Origin: Albidovulum sp.
Lineage (GTDB): Bacteria; Pseudomonadota; Alphaproteobacteria; Rhodobacterales; Rhodobacteraceae
DNA length: 8,482 nt
NCBI GenBank assembly: GCA_030837825.1
Contig: JAUQYB010000071.1
Coordinates: 1 to 8,482, forward strand
Direction: 5' to 3'
This document shows positions 1,714 through 8,468 of this stretch, piece after piece. The stretch's first letter is position 1; each line of letters opens with the position of its first letter. A program made the position numbers and the translations under genes. The notes below the pieces were generated by a model that was not told where the DNA came from, made no database searches, and saw only the letters and a list, made by a program, of their open reading frames with translations.

Positions 1714-3084
1714 ATGCGTCGAACGGAGGCTTTGGTGCAGGGATTCCTCTTCCGGAAAATCGAGGTCTGGGCAGTTCTCCTGCTTGCCTTTCTGGGCCTT
1801 CTTGGCGTCGTGGGCTTCGGCGCGGCGGTGCTGGACGGAGAGCGCGGAACCGGGCGGTTCGGGCCGGCGGGGGTGGTCGCGCTGAGTGTGGCGGAGGTTC
1901 CCGACACGCTGAAGGCGCTCCTGTCGCGCGACATGGCGATGGCGGCCTTCTCGCCGCACCGCTTCGCCGACCGGCCTGCGGGCTGGACCTTCGCGGAAGG
2001 CCCCCGGCCCGAGGGCTATGTGCTGCTGTCGCGCTACGACGGCGACCGCGCGCGCCATGTCGTGCAACTCGTCGCCCTTTCCGACGGGTCGGTGAAGCAC
2101 GAATGGCTGCCCGACGCTGACAGCCTTCTGGCCGACGCGCCGCATACCTCGCGAATCGCCGAATACACCAACTGGGACACGAAGCATTATCGCGCGATCC
2201 ATCCCATTCTGTCCGATGACGGCACATTGGTGATCAAGGATCACCAATCCTACCTCTACGGGCTTGGCGCCTGTTCGGAAAAACTCTGGAGCCAGTATGG
2301 CGTCCTTCTGCACCATGCGACCGAAAGCGACGGCGCCGGCGGCTGGTGGATCCCGGGATATGCAGAGCCGAGCAAGGTCGAAGGCGTCGCCGCCGATTTC
2401 GCCGACGATGCGCTCGTCCATCTGGGGCCGAAGGGCGAGGTTCTCTGGCAGAGGTCGCTGACCCAGATCCTGCTCGATCACGGGATGGAATACGCGATGT
2501 TCACCGCCGGGGACTATCAGAAGGACCCGGTGCACCTGAACGACATCGAGCCGGTGCTGAAGGACGGCCCCTACTGGAAGGCGGGCGACCTGTTCCTGAG
2601 CTTCCGGCACATGTCGATGATCATGCTCTACCGCCCGGCGACCGACGAGATCGTCTGGACCAAGCAGGGCCCCTGGCTGGCGCAACACGATGTCGACATC
2701 CTCGACGACACCCGCATCGCCGTCTTCAACAACAACGCCTACGAGCGGGGCACGCTGGCGCGGGTGCATGGCACCAACGAGATCATGGTCTATGACTTCG
2801 CCACCGGCGAGACCTCGCAGCCCTGGGACGCGGCGATGAAGAAGGCCGACGTGAAGACGCTGTTCGAGGGGCTTTTCACCGTGCTGCCGGACGGCACTGC
2901 GATGGTGGAGGAGGAAAACTCCGGCCGGCTGCTGTTTCTCGGCCAGGACGGAACCGAGCGCGGCGAATTCGTCAACACCGGCGCCGACGGGATCGCCTAC
3001 CGCATGGGCTGGACCCGCTACATGACCCCGGCCGAGGGCGAGGCGGCGCTGGCCCGGCTTTCCGCCACGAGTTGCGGCGGCTGA
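1714..3084 (+). CDS. Membrane-anchored arylsulfotransferase-family protein (Arylsulfotran_2-like)
   Basis: A 456-residue protein. Residues 18-40 form one hydrophobic segment (AVLLLAFLGLLGVVGFGAA) after a short basic N-terminus, suggesting an N-in membrane anchor with the body in the periplasm. The body matches my memory of the ASST (Arylsulfotran_2) family, especially VHLNDIEPV at 273-281, GDLFLSFRHMSMI at 291-303, and QHDVDILDD...FNNN at 324-341. These proteins are predicted beta-propellers. The well-studied AssT enzymes move sulfate between phenolic compounds through a catalytic His; here His274, His299 and His325 lie in the conserved motifs. Only two cysteines occur, Cys187 and Cys454, which could form a periplasmic disulfide. 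ATG 1714 has only weak GGGAA before it. GTG 1735 has GGAGG at ideal spacing and may be the true start (449 residues). Its stop lies one base from the convergent ccdA stop. Sulfation of a sugar or surface polymer is inference from the neighbours. Confidence 0.75.
   Translation: MRRTEALVQGFLFRKIEVWAVLLLAFLGLLGVVGFGAAVLDGERGTGRFGPAGVVALSVAEVPDTLKALLSRDMAMAAFSPHRFADRPAGWTFAEGPRPEGYVLLSRYDGDRARHVVQLVALSDGSVKHEWLPDADSLLADAPHTSRIAEYTNWDTKHYRAIHPILSDDGTLVIKDHQSYLYGLGACSEKLWSQYGVLLHHATESDGAGGWWIPGYAEPSKVEGVAADFADDALVHLGPKGEVLWQRSLTQILLDHGMEYAMFTAGDYQKDPVHLNDIEPVLKDGPYWKAGDLFLSFRHMSMIMLYRPATDEIVWTKQGPWLAQHDVDILDDTRIAVFNNNAYERGTLARVHGTNEIMVYDFATGETSQPWDAAMKKADVKTLFEGLFTVLPDGTAMVEEENSGRLLFLGQDGTERGEFVNTGADGIAYRMGWTRYMTPAEGEAALARLSATSCGG
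1725..1729 (+). promoter_or_regulatory. Ribosome binding site suggesting an alternative GTG start at 1735
   Basis: GGAGG sits five bases before an in-frame GTG (1735-1737), inside the longest reading frame of the sulfotransferase-like gene. The upstream ATG at 1714 has only a weak match. If this site is used, the protein starts seven codons later, directly before the FLFRK membrane-anchor lead. I keep 1714 as the outer limit and consider 1735 at least equally likely. Confidence 0.5.
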
Positions 3085-3085
3085 G

Positions 3086-3856
3086 TCAGCCGAGCTGGGC
3101 GAGCGCGGGGAAGGTTTCGAGAAGCCAGTAGGAAAACTGGCTGAAGCCGCCGGTCAGCATCAGAAGGCCGATGGTCCAGAGCAAAAGCCCCATGACCCGC
3201 TCGATCCGGTCCATGTGGCGCTTGAGAAAGGCCATGAACCCCTTCAGCCGCGGGAAGAACGCCGCGACCAGCAGGAACGGGATGCCGAGGCCGACGGCAT
3301 AGATGGCCAGAAGCGCAGTGCCGCGGCCGATCGACCCGTCCTGCGCGGCCAGGGCGAGGATCATGCCGAGCTGCGGGCCGATGCAGGGGGTCCAGCCGAA
3401 GGCGAAGGCGAGGCCGAGAAGATAGGCGCCGAAGGCCGATCCGCCCTGGTCGCCGGCTTCGAGCCTGGCCTCGCGGTTCAGGAATCCGATGCGGATCACG
3501 CCAAGGAAATGCGCGCCGAAGATCATCACCACGATCCCGGCGAGCGTATTGAACCAGTCCTGATTCTTCAGGAAGAACTGGCCGAAGGCCGATGCCGTGA
3601 AGCCGAGGAAGAGAAAGACGGTCGAAAGCCCGAGCACGAAGAAGAGCGCCGCCACCAGCGCGGGGTTGCGCCGCCTGCCGCCGGTTCCCGAGCCGGTGCT
3701 TTCGCCCATCTCGGCCATGCTGATCCCGCCCATGTAGGCCAGATAGGGCGGCACGATCGGCAGCACGCAGGGGCTGATGAACGAGAGCACCCCCGCCAGG
3801 AGCGCGATCAGCGCGGCGAGCGCAAAGCCCGCGTCCATGATGCCGGTTTCCAACAT
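3086..3856 (-). CDS. ccdA: Cytochrome c biogenesis protein CcdA (thiol-disulfide membrane transporter)
   Basis: A 256-residue polytopic inner-membrane protein with about six hydrophobic segments (near 10-36, 66-92, 104-124, 142-166, 181-201 and 219-237). CcdA proteins correspond to the central domain of DsbD: they pass electrons from cytoplasmic thioredoxin to periplasmic thiol proteins, keeping apocytochrome c cysteines reduced for haem attachment. The two redox cysteines are visible as SPCVLPIVP (Cys30) in segment one and WTPCIGP (Cys158) in segment four, each beside prolines as expected. Length is normal for free-standing CcdA. AGAGGTG lies four bases before the ATG at 3856 and supports the start; a second Met at residue 7 is less well placed. 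It lies downstream of rne on the same strand, with a likely terminator between, so probably has its own promoter. No thioredoxin-like partner is in the window. Confidence 0.93.
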   Translation of the reverse strand: MLETGIMDAGFALAALIALLAGVLSFISPCVLPIVPPYLAYMGGISMAEMGESTGSGTGGRRRNPALVAALFFVLGLSTVFLFLGFTASAFGQFFLKNQDWFNTLAGIVVMIFGAHFLGVIRIGFLNREARLEAGDQGGSAFGAYLLGLAFAFGWTPCIGPQLGMILALAAQDGSIGRGTALLAIYAVGLGIPFLLVAAFFPRLKGFMAFLKRHMDRIERVMGLLLWTIGLLMLTGGFSQFSYWLLETFPALAQLG

Positions 3857-3978: not shown

Positions 3979-6687
3979 TCAGCGTCCGAGCGACCACCAG
4001 CCGCGCTTGCGCGGCCTGGCCGGCTCGTCCGGTTCGGGCGCGGCCCGGTCGTCGGGGTCGGGCCGGAGCGTCCCGGTCGCGAGCGCGGGTTCCGGCGCCG
4101 GCATCGGCGTCGGCGCCGCCTGCGCCACGGCAAGCTCCGGCTCGGGTTCGGCCCTGGGCGCCGCCCCGGCGGCAGGCGCGGCGGTCACCGGCTCGGTTTC
4201 GGCGGACGCGGCCTTGGCCTTCGAGCGGCTGCGGCTGGCCTTCGGCTTTGCCGGCGTCTCGGCAGCACCCTCTTCGGCCGCCTTCCGCGGGCTGCGCCGC
4301 TTCGGCTTTGCCGCGGGCTCGGCCGGTTCCGCGGCGATGGCCGCCTCGGGCTCGGGCTCGACGGCGGGCTCGACGGCGGGCTCGGCTGCGGGTCCTGCGG
4401 GCGCCGCCGCCTCGGCGGGCTTCGCCTTGGTGCGGCTGCGGGTCCGGCTGCGGGTGGATTTGGGCTTCGGCGCGGCTTCGGCCGGCTGCTCCTCGCCAGC
4501 CTCGGCGGCCGGTTCGGCCGCAGCCTCGGCGGCCCCGGCCTCGACAGGCGCCACCGCTTCCGCGGCGATCTCTGCCGCCGCCTCGGCCGGCGGCTGGGAA
4601 CCCTCGGCCCGATCGGATCCGCCCGGCTTCCGCCGGCGCCGCCGGCGCCGCTTCTTCTTGCGGCCGGGCTCGCCCTCGCCCGCGGCTGCGGGCGCCTCGG
4701 CGGCCTCGTCCTCCTCGTCGACCTCGTCCTCCTCGGTCTCGATCTCGGCTTCGATCTCGTCCTCGTCCGCGATCCTCAGCGCATCGACCGAGACGACCGG
4801 CGTCGCGGCCTCGGGCACATGGCGCGTCGCGGTCTTGAACTTGTCGATGTCGAAGTCGGGGCTGACCATCGCCGGATCGGCCTCGAGCCGGATCGACATG
4901 CCGTAGCGCGCCTCGATCTGCGCCAGATGCTCGCGCTTCTGGTTGATCAGGAAGTTGACGATGCCGACCGGCGCCTTGAGCAGCACCTCCTTCGAGCGCT
5001 TGCGCGTCCCCTCCTCCTCGAGCTGGCGGAGGATCTGGAGCGCGAGGCTGTCGTCGGAGCGGATGATGCCGGTGCCGTGGCAGTGCGGGCAGGGCGCGGT
5101 CGTCGATTCGATCATGCCGGGGCGCAGCCGCTGGCGGCTCATCTCCAGAAGCCCGAAGCCGGAGATGCGGCCGACCTGGATGCGGGCGCGGTCGGTCTTC
5201 AGCTTTTCCTTCAGGCGCTTCTCGACCGAGGCGTTGTTCTTGCGCTCCTCCATGTCGATGAAGTCGATGACGATCAGGCCGGCAAGGTCGCGCAGACGAA
5301 GCTGCCGGGCGATCTCCTCGGCCGCCTCGAGGTTGGTCTTGAGCGCGGTCTCCTCGATCGAGCCCTCCTTGGTGGCGCGGCCGGAGTTGACGTCGATGGC
5401 GACCAGCGCCTCGGTCACGCCGATGACGATGTAGCCGCCCGACCTGAGCTGCACCGTCGGGTTGAACATCGCGGCGAGGTAGCTCTCGACCTGGTAGCGG
5501 GCAAAGAGCGGCAGCGTCTCGGCGTAGTGTTTCACGTTCTTGGCGTGGGACGGCATGATCATCTTCATGAAGTCCTTGGCCGCGCGATAGCCGGTCTCGC
5601 CCTCGACCAGAACCTCGTCGATGTCCTTGGAGTAGAGGTCGCGGATCGACCGCTTGATCAGGTCGCCTTCCTCGTAGATCGGCGCCGGGGCGATCGACTT
5701 CAGGGTGAGGTCGCGGATCTGTTCCCAGAGCCGCATGAGGTATTCGTAGTCGCGCCTGATCTCGGCCTTGGTGCGCTGGCTTCCGGCGGTGCGGATGATC
5801 AGGCCCGCACCCTCCGGCACCTCGATCTCGCCGGCGATCTCCTTCAGCTTCTTGCGGTCGGCGGCGTTGGTGATCTTGCGGGAAATGCCGCCGCCGCGGG
5901 CGGTGTTGGGCATCAGCACGCAGTAGCGGCCGGCGAGGCTGAGATAGGTGGTCAGCGCCGCGCCCTTGTTGCCGCGCTCTTCCTTGACGACCTGGACCAG
6001 CATGATCTGCCGGACCTTGATCACCTCCTGGATCTTGTAGCGGCGCGGGCGGGGCTTTCTCGGCTGGCGGATTTCGTCGGCCACGTCCTCCTCGGCGACC
6101 GACTCGATCTCCTCGTCGGTGTCGGAGGCGTGGTCGGCGGCAACGTAGGGCTCTTCGCGCTCGGCCCCGGCGTCCGCCGGGCCCTCGGCGGGGCCGTCGC
6201 CCCGGGCCTCGGTCGCGGGGGGCGCATCCGCAGGCTCCGCGCCGGCCCCGGCGGCCTCCTCGTCGAGGTCGACGATAGTCATGCCGGGGATGTCGTCGCT
6301 GTTCGCCGTCGCGTCGGCGGCGGCGGCCTTTTCAGCCCTGGACTGCGAGCGGCCCCGGCGGCGCGAACGGCCGTTCTCCTCGTCCTCGATCGCCTCCGCA
6401 TAGGCGCGCTCCTCGGCCAGAAGCGCCTGCCGGTCGGCAACGGGGATCTGGTAGTAGTCCGGGTGAATCTCCGAAAACGCGAGGAAACCGTGGCGGTTGC
6501 CGCCGTAGTCGACGAAAGCCGCCTGGAGCGAGGGTTCGACCCGCGTGACCTTCGCTAGATAGATGTTGCCCTGAAGCTGGCGTTTGTTGACGGTCTCGAA
6601 GTCGAATTCCTCGACCTTGTTTCCGTCGACCACCACGACGCGGGTTTCCTCCGCGTGGGTGGCATCGATGAGCATTTTCTTGGCCAT
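3979..6687 (-). CDS. rne: Ribonuclease E (Rne), degradosome endoribonuclease
   Basis: A 902-residue endoribonuclease that cuts AU-rich single-stranded RNA in mRNA decay and rRNA/tRNA processing. The S1 RNA-binding domain starts near 36 (GNIYLAKVTRVEPSLQAAFV), is broken by an acidic, low-complexity insertion at about 101-215, and resumes around 216-260. RTAG at 299-302 is the 5'-monophosphate sensor (E. coli Arg169/Thr170). The DNase I-like domain carries AIDVNSGRAT with Asp432 and VIDFIDM with Asp475, matching catalytic Asp303 and Asp346. CPHCHGTG holds zinc-link Cys533 and Cys536. The small domain ends near 600. The tail is disordered and Ala/Glu/Pro-rich, with acidic (about 641-660) and arginine-rich (676-687) patches, and ends RGWWSLGR. 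In Caulobacter a similar C-terminal GWW motif binds PNPase. Length resembles other alphaproteobacterial RNase E. GGAAAG five bases before the ATG supports the start. A structured leader precedes it. Confidence 0.97.
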   Translation of the reverse strand: MAKKMLIDATHAEETRVVVVDGNKVEEFDFETVNKRQLQGNIYLAKVTRVEPSLQAAFVDYGGNRHGFLAFSEIHPDYYQIPVADRQALLAEERAYAEAIEDEENGRSRRRGRSQSRAEKAAAADATANSDDIPGMTIVDLDEEAAGAGAEPADAPPATEARGDGPAEGPADAGAEREEPYVAADHASDTDEEIESVAEEDVADEIRQPRKPRPRRYKIQEVIKVRQIMLVQVVKEERGNKGAALTTYLSLAGRYCVLMPNTARGGGISRKITNAADRKKLKEIAGEIEVPEGAGLIIRTAGSQRTKAEIRRDYEYLMRLWEQIRDLTLKSIAPAPIYEEGDLIKRSIRDLYSKDIDEVLVEGETGYRAAKDFMKMIMPSHAKNVKHYAETLPLFARYQVESYLAAMFNPTVQLRSGGYIVIGVTEALVAIDVNSGRATKEGSIEETALKTNLEAAEEIARQLRLRDLAGLIVIDFIDMEERKNNASVEKRLKEKLKTDRARIQVGRISGFGLLEMSRQRLRPGMIESTTAPCPHCHGTGIIRSDDSLALQILRQLEEEGTRKRSKEVLLKAPVGIVNFLINQKREHLAQIEARYGMSIRLEADPAMVSPDFDIDKFKTATRHVPEAATPVVSVDALRIADEDEIEAEIETEEDEVDEEDEAAEAPAAAGEGEPGRKKKRRRRRRRKPGGSDRAEGSQPPAEAAAEIAAEAVAPVEAGAAEAAAEPAAEAGEEQPAEAAPKPKSTRSRTRSRTKAKPAEAAAPAGPAAEPAVEPAVEPEPEAAIAAEPAEPAAKPKRRSPRKAAEEGAAETPAKPKASRSRSKAKAASAETEPVTAAPAAGAAPRAEPEPELAVAQAAPTPMPAPEPALATGTLRPDPDDRAAPEPDEPARPRKRGWWSLGR
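4359..4382 (-). repeat. 12-bp tandem duplication in the rne tail
   Basis: Two adjacent copies of CGACGGCGGGCT (plus-strand reading) encode the repeated PAVE unit at about residues 769-777 of RNase E. It is in frame and in the disordered tail, typical of slippage in a low-constraint region. Confidence 0.6.
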
Positions 6688-7136: not shown

Positions 7137-8468
7137 TCAGAGGTAGTCCGACCGCTGCAACCCGTATTTCGCCATCTTCTCGTTCAGCGTCCGCCGCGGC
7201 AGGCAGAGCTCCTCCATCACGTTGGCGATGGAGCCCTTGTGGCGGCGCAGGGTGTTGTCGATCAGCATCTTCTCGAAGCTCTCGACATATTCCTTGAGCG
7301 GCTTGCCCTCGGTGGTCATCGCCGGGCCCGCCTCCTCGTTCTCGGCCATCAGAAGCGAGGCGATGGAGCCCGAGCCGCGGCGGTTCTGCAGCACCGCGCG
7401 TTCGGCCACGTTGATCAGTTGGCGCACGTTGCCGGGCCAGGGTGCCTGGAGAAGCTGGGCCGCCTCCTGTGCGGTCACCTGCGGCGCCTCGCAGCCGTAT
7501 TCCTCGGCGAACTGTTCGGCGAGCCGGGTGAAAAGCGTCAGGATGTCCTCGCCGCGCGAGCGCAGCGGCGGCAGCACGATCTTGAGCGCGGCGAGCCGGA
7601 AGTAGAGGTCGGGGCGCAGCGCGTCCTCGACGGTGCGGCCCTGTTCGTGGTCGTTGCAGATGCCGATGATCCGGGTTTCGGCGGGCGTGCCCTGTTCGTT
7701 GATGAAGGTGAGAAGACGGGCCTGCAGGGGCTGGCTCAGCGCCTCGATGTCCTCGAGGACCAGCGTGCCGCCCCGCGCCTCCTCGACCAGCGGGATCTGC
7801 CCGCCCTCGTCCATCGGTCCGAAGAGCCGGGCAGCGAGATGATCTTCCGACCAGGCGGCGCAGGAGATCACCACGAACTTCTTGCCGGCGCGCGGGCCGA
7901 CGGCGTGGAGCGCGTGGGCGACGAGCGTCTTGCCGGTGCCGGTCTCGCCGTCGATCAGCACGTGGCCGTCGGCCTGGCCGAGGTCGAGGATGTCCTCCCT
8001 GAGCCGCTCCATCGCCGGCGAGGTGCCGATCAGCTTCTTCATGATCGTCGAGCCGTCGGCAAGCTCGCGGCGGAGCGCGCGGTTGTCGAGCGTCATCCGC
8101 CGGCTCTGGCTCGCCCGCTTGGCGAGGTCGGTCATCTTGTCGGGGTTGAAGGGCTTTTCGAGGAAGTCGTAGGCGCCGACGCGCATCGCCTCCACCGCCA
8201 TCGGCACGTCGCCGTGGCCGGTGATCATGATCACCGGCAGGCCGGAATCGACGCTCATCAGCTTCCTGAGGAAGGCCATGCCGTCCATGCCGGGCATCTT
8301 GATGTCGGAGACGACGACCCCGGGCCAGTCCTGCCCGATCGCCTTCAGCGCCTCCTCGGCGCTGGCGTAGGTCTCGGTATCGAAGCCCGAGAGCGCCAGC
8401 CACTGGCTGATCGACTGCCGCATGTCCTGTTCGTCATCGACAATCGCCACCTTCATCGCGCGCGCCAT
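7137..8468 (-). CDS. dctD: DctD/NtrC-type response regulator with degenerate sigma-54 activator domain
   Basis: A 443-residue cytoplasmic regulator. The receiver domain (5-120) has the acidic pair Asp11/Asp12, phospho-acceptor Asp55 in VSDIKMPGMDG, Thr83 and Lys105. The AAA+ domain (about 145-365) has Walker A GETGTGKT at 174-181, arginine fingers Arg285 and Arg291 in RPDLYFRL, and sensor II WPGNVRQL at 344-351. A Fis-type helix-turn-helix sits at about 411-437 (KGSIANVMEELCLPRRTLNE). Overall it resembles DctD, the C4-dicarboxylate transport regulator. Key oddities: the GAFTGA loop that touches sigma-54 is absent after LFG (215-217), the Walker B acidic pair reads ED (239-240) instead of DE, and the glutamate-switch Asn is Ser202. 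GAGG six bases before ATG 8468 supports this start over Met5. The upstream bases contain TGA triplets that could end a partner sensor-kinase gene beyond the edge. The symbol is by similarity; the target genes are unknown. Confidence 0.85.
   Translation of the reverse strand: MARAMKVAIVDDEQDMRQSISQWLALSGFDTETYASAEEALKAIGQDWPGVVVSDIKMPGMDGMAFLRKLMSVDSGLPVIMITGHGDVPMAVEAMRVGAYDFLEKPFNPDKMTDLAKRASQSRRMTLDNRALRRELADGSTIMKKLIGTSPAMERLREDILDLGQADGHVLIDGETGTGKTLVAHALHAVGPRAGKKFVVISCAAWSEDHLAARLFGPMDEGGQIPLVEEARGGTLVLEDIEALSQPLQARLLTFINEQGTPAETRIIGICNDHEQGRTVEDALRPDLYFRLAALKIVLPPLRSRGEDILTLFTRLAEQFAEEYGCEAPQVTAQEAAQLLQAPWPGNVRQLINVAERAVLQNRRGSGSIASLLMAENEEAGPAMTTEGKPLKEYVESFEKMLIDNTLRRHKGSIANVMEELCLPRRTLNEKMAKYGLQRSDYL

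Follow-up and report, generated by a model that had tools for sequence, protein, structure and literature searches.

The stretch of DNA analysed here, termed the window (8,482 nucleotides of Albidovulum sp.), carries on its reverse strand a gene for a DctD-like response regulator followed by the gene for RNase E. The features relevant to this work are:

7137..8468, reverse strand: DctD-like response regulator of 443 amino acids, with receiver, AAA+ and Fis-type helix-turn-helix (HTH) domains (open reading frame)
8124..8450, reverse strand: receiver domain, residues 7–115 (PF00072)
8304–8306, reverse strand: phospho-acceptor Asp55, present in 81/81 and 121/121 sequences
7926..7949, reverse strand: Walker A GETGTGK-T, residues 174–181 (GETG[TS]GK in 81/81)
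7863..7865, reverse strand: Ser202 at the position of the glutamate-switch Asn (alignment tallies)
7773..7817, reverse strand: short stretch of residues 218–232, PMDEGGQIPLVEEAR, at the L1/GAFTGA position of sigma-54 activators
7749..7754, reverse strand: Walker B Glu239-Asp240, ED and not DE (80/81 and 121/121)
7674..7709, reverse strand: site of the deleted pre-sensor-I (L2) loop, residues 254–265 (short in 81/81 and 121/121)
7596..7616, reverse strand: retained arginine fingers Arg285 and Arg291 (each 81/81 and 121/121)
7164..7286, reverse strand: Fis-type helix-turn-helix, residues 395–435 (PF02954)
3979..6687, reverse strand: RNase E (rne), the next gene downstream on the same strand (open reading frame and annotation)

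The remainder of the window contains genes for an NAD-dependent epimerase (354–1406, forward), an arylsulfotransferase-like protein (1714–3084, forward) and a CcdA/DsbD-type membrane protein (3086–3856, reverse). The window has no Rfam match at gathering scores.

The Pfam matches of the regulator, Response_reg (110 bits), Sigma54_activat (94), AAA_lid_14 (53) and HTH_8 (33.5), all exceed their cut-offs, and the bEBP domain set of receiver, Sigma54_activat AAA+ and Fis-type HTH is present. A fold search of the AAA+ part in the library pdb_via matched PspF, NtrC1 and NtrX. The AlphaFold2 model has a mean pLDDT of 62.9 and is good in the AAA+ part only. The closest named relative belongs to Defluviimonas sp. 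WL0050 (93% identity). A preliminary description of this DNA held that the receiver, Walker A, arginine fingers and Fis-type domain are retained, and the Pfam matches together with the invariant key residues bear this out. As for family membership, the closest receiver-only PDB chain is the C4-dicarboxylate regulator 1qkk (E 2e-43), which likens the protein to DctD. Orthology to NtrC was rejected on the score against TIGR01818 (250.7 bits, cut-off 558.6) and on the separate branch in the tree, and orthology to NtrC, NtrX, AtoC or PgtA was rejected with the best 25 of 106 NCBIfam rows all falling below their own cut-offs.

Sigma-54 activators engage sigma-54 through two loops, L1 with its GAFTGA motif and L2, the pre-sensor-I loop. 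In the regulator only PMDEGGQIPLVEEAR (218–232) lies between LFG (residues 215–217) and GGT (residues 233–235). The reported lack of GAFTGA at this site extends from the query to 200/200 homologues, which comprise 120 proteins and 80 genome loci with one protein common to both sets (GAFTGA-like motif in 0/120 and 0/80), and the proposed check of close homologues for the motif therefore yielded 0/200. The reported ED at Walker B (E239-D240, 7749–7754) recurs in 199/200 homologues, and the reported replacement of the switch Asn by Ser corresponds to S202 (7863–7865). Conservation of all three changes across the clade had also been put forward as a check. In the 120 homologues plus query, Ser, ED, the short L2, the Walker A Lys, Arg285, Arg291 and Asp55 each occur in 121/121. 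In the 80 loci plus query, the switch residue is Ser in 77, Ala in two, Asn in one and Thr in one, Walker B is ED in 80 and EG in one (L069), and the short L2, GETG[TS]GK, Arg285, Arg291 and Asp55 are each found in 81/81. Thirty further loci (L120–L149) contain ED in 30/30, Ser in 28, Thr in one and Asn in one, and none has GAFTGA. The switch Asn is still found in L144 and L051.

Two further changes were absent from the preliminary description. Alignment with paralogues from ten genomes (L094 left out) revealed that the L2 loop carries a deletion as well, nine residues long. The same gap appears in the alignments of the regulator to NtrX (5m7n) and NtrC1 (4l4u), and the L2 region spans 12 residues compared with 20–25 in relatives with a full L2. 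In addition, GKE is changed to GKT. Residue 181, which follows the Walker A Lys, is Thr in 78 and Ser in three of 81 sequences, while outside the group it is Glu in 11 of 12 sequences of the same alignment and Asp in one. The AAA+ part of the regulator exhibits dN/dS values of 0.06, 0.17, 0.18, 0.20 and 0.09 against five relatives, and the gene contains no internal stops in the 80 loci. The low dN/dS and the invariant motifs indicate that the altered domain is maintained. A sequencing error or a pseudogene is ruled out by the 200 homologues and the low dN/dS.

The bearing of these changes on ATP hydrolysis can be gauged from PspF. Its L2 loop, RVGGSQPLQ, is described as a major feature for engaging the sigma-54 polymerase that acts mainly via L1 (PMC2745333). 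Substitution E43A, of the Glu after the Walker A Lys, is reported to lower Vmax from 39.5 to 1.4 per min (PMC3419264). For E108D, a reduced ATPase but wild-type behaviour on duplex DNA is reported, and for N64S an ability to engage the sigma-54 polymerase (both PMC4132715). Given the wild-type-like behaviour of E108D and the competence of N64S, the Walker B and switch changes alone are no proof of lost function. ATP hydrolysis by the regulator is probably weak or absent, since in PspF it is influenced by each of the changed elements: L2, the switch, Walker B and the Glu that follows Walker A. The earlier proposal of a changed or lost ATPase is plausible; against it stand the invariance of the Walker A Lys and of the two Arg fingers and the wild-type-like action of PspF E108D on duplex DNA.

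The surroundings of the gene were compared across the 80 loci. All 80 have a match to the kinase of locus L001. Where 2.5 kb upstream are available (76 loci), the kinase gene directly neighbours that of the regulator, with the same orientation, in all but one (75). In each of the 74 loci having 4 kb, purQ precedes the kinase. Of the 72 loci with enough sequence, 51 have a co-oriented rne no more than 1.5 kb downstream. The L001 kinase comprises HisKA, HATPase_c and a dCache-like sensor, the dCache_1 match being at 36 bits, below the cut-off of 45. The sensor matches 3by9 (molecule named 'sensor protein') with an E value of 5e-15 and DctB (2zbb/3e4o) with an E value of 2e-4. The relatives thus have a DctB-type kinase next door, as does DctD; the assignment of a DctB-type partner is made from these relatives, and the kinase of the window would start past the window edge. 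No DctP/Q/M (TRAP transporter) match was detected in the flanks of the 80 loci, and the name DctD accordingly rests on sequence and not on linkage. The regulator differs from DctD in this respect as well as in lacking GAFTGA and L2 and in having ED and Ser. A role as regulator of a linked TRAP transporter was ruled out on the same count (0/80).

Searches around the loci for a target gene, operator or promoter of the regulator found none. No DctD-operator-like repeat at 11/12 or better occurs in the 1.24 Mb of the 80 loci, and beside purQ-kinase or before rne no exact repeat is common to more than 7 of 58 loci. A −24/−12 search near the locus returned 136 scattered weak matches across the 1.24 Mb, while a single mononucleotide shuffle gave 63; the matches form no pattern. 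A candidate leader peptide before rne, which looked alike by eye in the window and L001, was discarded when its pattern was found in 1/80 loci.

The distribution of the regulator was examined in 296 Rhodobacteraceae genomes drawn by one setting, using PF04552 for rpoN and the window protein for the regulator. PF04552 matches 110 of the 296 genomes, 102 of them above the family's own cut-off. Ten weak partial matches (E >1e-6; G076, G091, G103, G161, G163, G216, G225, G262, G268 and G298) were left out, which leaves 100 genomes counted as having rpoN and 196 as lacking it. Two of the ten, G076 and G262, exceed the family cut-off, and counting at the cut-off leaves 194 without. Regulator matches number 282 at 1e-80 and 278 at E ≤ 1e-100, with G014, G026, G167 and G287 (1e-84 to 1e-93) counted as lacking an orthologue. 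At E ≤ 1e-100 the regulator is present in 190/196 genomes without rpoN and 88/100 with it (188/194 and 90/102 by the cut-off count). The regulator sequences read were the 120 proteins, the 80 loci, L120–L149 and the divergent set described below, and represent fewer than 278 genomes; the motifs are unchanged in the rpoN-less genomes among them, for example in L037, L052, L065 and L076. Since 190 of 196 genomes without an rpoN match have the regulator, it cannot need sigma-54 there. With GAFTGA missing throughout and L2 gone, the earlier claim that the regulator has left sigma-54 control is well supported.

The 88 rpoN-bearing genomes that also carry the regulator are of interest for another reading, in which it joins a canonical activator as partner subunit of mixed rings and so still serves sigma-54 promoters. 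Such a hetero-complex exists within the Rhodobacteraceae, FleT being described together with FleQ in C. sphaeroides (PMC11999139), and both this precedent and the 88/100 count favour mixed rings. We consider the reading very improbable given the retention of the regulator, with the same motifs where read, in nearly all rpoN-less genomes. A remaining sigma-54 role in those 88 genomes may be compatible with the distribution.

A first sample of ten named genomes includes four without rpoN. Among the activator-type proteins read from these four, which are part of the matches, none has GAFTGA or GSFTGA; two of the genomes show GAFPGA (G005) and GAFAHD (G010), respectively. GAFTGA or GSFTGA appears in five of the six rpoN-bearing genomes, and the sixth, G001, which is the genome of the closest named relative and has one rpoN, shows GSFPGA, GAFPGA and NSFTGA. 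The GAFAHD of G010 stands at the GAFTGA position of a DctD-like protein (L087 in L118, no rpoN match in the genome) whose gene neighbours those of a kinase and of DctM. GAFTGA is missing, but L2 and the Walker B DE are retained, in NtrX-like proteins and a further activator-like group from the same genomes (L097, L099, L103, L089, L090, L098 and L104–L107). Beyond the family, 25 of 289 Alphaproteobacteria genomes match the regulator at 1e-75. Only five of the 289, all in the family sample, reach at least 79% identity, and the next best is at most 43%. In 25 loci read at below 44% identity, a GAFTGA-like motif is present in 24/25, a full L2 in 25/25, the switch Asn in 25/25, DE in 23/25 and the Glu after Walker A in 25/25.

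Divergent matches to the regulator occur in 26 genomes. The 20 loci retrieved comprise 19 divergent ones and L198, a canonical control. The kinase adjoins the gene in 19/20 (exception L192) and purQ is found on 17/20 (absent from L195, L197 and L198). The receiver Asp is present in 22/22 of the divergent set, and the HTH core is nearly identical in the 19 that reach it. Over the 19 divergent relatives the HTH is the best conserved domain (mean identity 77%) and the AAA+ the fastest (48%), a difference that would also be expected if the altered motifs were the neutral decay of a gene heading for loss. The dN/dS of 0.06–0.20 in five close pairs, the absence of internal stops and the matches at E ≤ 1e-100 in 278/296 genomes argue against decay, which is disfavoured and hardly credible.

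The motifs of the divergent relatives are graded. L166 and L167 have no L1 and a short L2, yet retain DE and the switch Asn. L163 combines ED with the switch Asn. Walker B is EN in L157, L160–L162 and L168, KN in L169, EA in L164 and EE in L159, and other divergent regulators have ED without Asn. The Walker A Lys is replaced by Arg in L168, L169 and L171, members of the regulator's own group. Two trees were computed with the AAA+ columns removed; the first also excludes L152 and L165, which are partial genes. In the wider tree a group of 15 rows has support of 100/100; within it L166 and L167 form a pair (100/99) and the remaining 13 rows cluster at 87/69, so that the early branching of L166/L167 is only moderately supported. 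L171 lies on a long branch. Parsimony on the first tree requires one change for L2, two for DE, four for the switch and two for the Walker A Lys. A clade that lacks L1 and has a full L2 (L172, L173 and L176–L178) stands next to the regulator's group in the first tree (91/85) and lies outside the group in the wider tree; given this unstable placement it was not used to argue that L1 was lost before L2. The L166/L167 pair, without loops and with DE and Asn, suggests that the loops were lost before the catalytic residues. From these trees of few rows, we infer that in the ancestor of the locus the earliest losses may have been the loops together with the Glu that follows Walker A, with Walker B and the switch decaying later, in ways that differ by lineage.

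Loss of GAFTGA has precedents. NtrC is the regulator of nitrogen control that works with NtrB. The NtrC proteins of three relatives (L111–L113) have neither L1 nor L2, read GKS, lack the switch Asn and keep DE at Walker B; in a wider Rhodobacterales NtrC set (L111–L113, L217 and L218) L1 and L2 are likewise absent, GKS is present and DE is found in the three that were aligned. Retention of Walker A with deletion of both loops is thus common to the regulator and the NtrC of these three relatives, and the analogy drawn earlier to R. capsulatus NtrC, also a response regulator, is a good one as far as loop loss can be compared through L111–L113. The NtrC of the relatives differs in keeping DE, in its receiver and HTH, and in its place in the tree. 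R. capsulatus NtrC is described as lacking the L1 motif, working with sigma-70 and needing ATP binding but not hydrolysis, and Caulobacter NtrC, also without GAFTGA, as regulating sigma-70 promoters and needing both Walker A and Walker B residues (PMC10274813). HupR, TyrR and DhaR are termed sigma-70-dependent (PMC3162934). These three, VpsR and Caulobacter NtrC are NtrC-family proteins with a defective or absent GAFTGA and are likened to the regulator in this respect. Among the matches listed in a search of the open-licence literature, with subscription journals outside its scope, there was no paper on the purQ-linked regulator.

A separate Rhodobacteraceae DctD family of ~412 residues also lacks L1 and L2 (L114–L117, L215, L216, L249–L254 and L255–L284). 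In five of six loci the gene and a dctB-like kinase lie beside dctPQM, four of them in genomes without rpoN, and in L254 the transporter is divergent from the regulator gene. The family branches beside a canonical GAFTGA DctD (L174/L198; support 100/99), whose gene likewise neighbours dctPQM and whose genome has rpoN. Of the six proteins first read, five lack the Walker A Lys; L117 keeps GPTGAGK but is devoid of Walker B acids. From the next 30 best loci 27 were kept, L258, L260 and L265 being dropped when the regulator was not found by pattern. By pattern, the 27 have GAFTGA in none, GxxGxGK in none and a DE Walker B in 15. Downstream of the gene, 23/27 carry exactly two copies of TGTGCG-N6-CGCACA (at least 10/12) 32–33 bases apart and four carry none, compared with an expectation from mononucleotide shuffles of ~2 single sites in all 27 loci. 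The check that dctP follows the gene covered the six loci first described. In the canonical locus the two repeats recur with a spacing of 32 bases; L253 contains a single copy, and in L254 the spacing is 41. Scores for −24/−12, which are weak as promoter evidence, are 9/10 with an incomplete GC for canonical L198, 6 to 8 in the other five regions and, equally weak, 7 to 9 in the 27 further loci (L257 at 9). A query with this family matches 147/296 genomes at 1e-90, including G287 with its canonical protein. Disruption of SPO2630 of R. pomeroyi, described as a C4-dicarboxylate TRAP regulatory protein, is reported to lower fitness, as for dctM and dctQ (PMC10041152). The ~412-residue DctD and the purQ-linked regulator both lack L1 and L2; the former differs in its separate branch and in having mostly lost the Walker A Lys. 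By alignment and tree, Rhodobacterales NtrC and the ~412-residue DctD are cases of loss of both loops separate from that of the purQ-linked regulator.

That 27 such DctD loci are without GxxGxGK while 23 keep paired operator-like repeats lends some weight to the possibility that the purQ-linked regulator is a repressor or a simple DNA-binder whose AAA+ domain is a folded dimerisation spacer for which ATP is irrelevant, as does the Lys-to-Arg change in L168, L169 and L171. We regard it as unlikely: the close clade retains the two Arg fingers along with the Walker A Lys in 81/81 and 121/121, and a mere spacer would have no need of them.

With moderate confidence, we favour instead a DctD-like regulator without L1 and L2 that is likely phosphorylated by a DctB-type kinase and would then form an ATP-bound assembly on DNA that would recruit a sigma-70-type polymerase, rather than remodelling the sigma-54 polymerase. 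The neighbouring kinase would phosphorylate Asp55, upon which the receivers would rearrange. ATP bound between subunits, for which Walker A and the Arg fingers are kept, would stabilise the assembly on DNA. Lacking L1 and L2, the regulator would be unable to grip sigma-54 and would contact the sigma-70-type polymerase instead, presumably activating rather than repressing.

The regulator is unusual among NtrC-type regulators that left sigma-54 in the family-wide fixation of its changes, its reversed Walker B and the two parallel cases in the same bacteria. A broader proposal, which we advance tentatively and with somewhat less than even confidence, is that NtrC-type regulators of the Rhodobacteraceae gave up the sigma-54 motor on three or more separate occasions, always by loss of L1 and L2, with the ATP site spared differently: Walker A and B in NtrC; Walker A and an inverted Walker B in the purQ-linked regulator; and, in the dctPQM-linked DctD, a mostly lost Walker A Lys with the paired operators kept. 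The regulators would have been freed first, so that rpoN could later be lost without harm in about two thirds of the family, and the AAA+ domain encoded in the window would be a novel device, a clamp loaded with ATP and bearing a reversed Walker B, which assembles on DNA without mechanical work.

Public records call the relatives of the regulator sigma-54-dependent, a label that is very probably wrong for the purQ-linked family. The graded relatives constitute a natural series for stepwise assay of the loops, the catalytic acids and the switch, and make testable the passage from an ATP-driven activator to a regulator working with the ordinary polymerase. At dctPQM the same operon and operator type are paired with a GAFTGA-type DctD in one genome and a loop-less DctD in others. 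A regulator likely acting through the ordinary polymerase would show how such proteins outlive their original partner, sigma-54.
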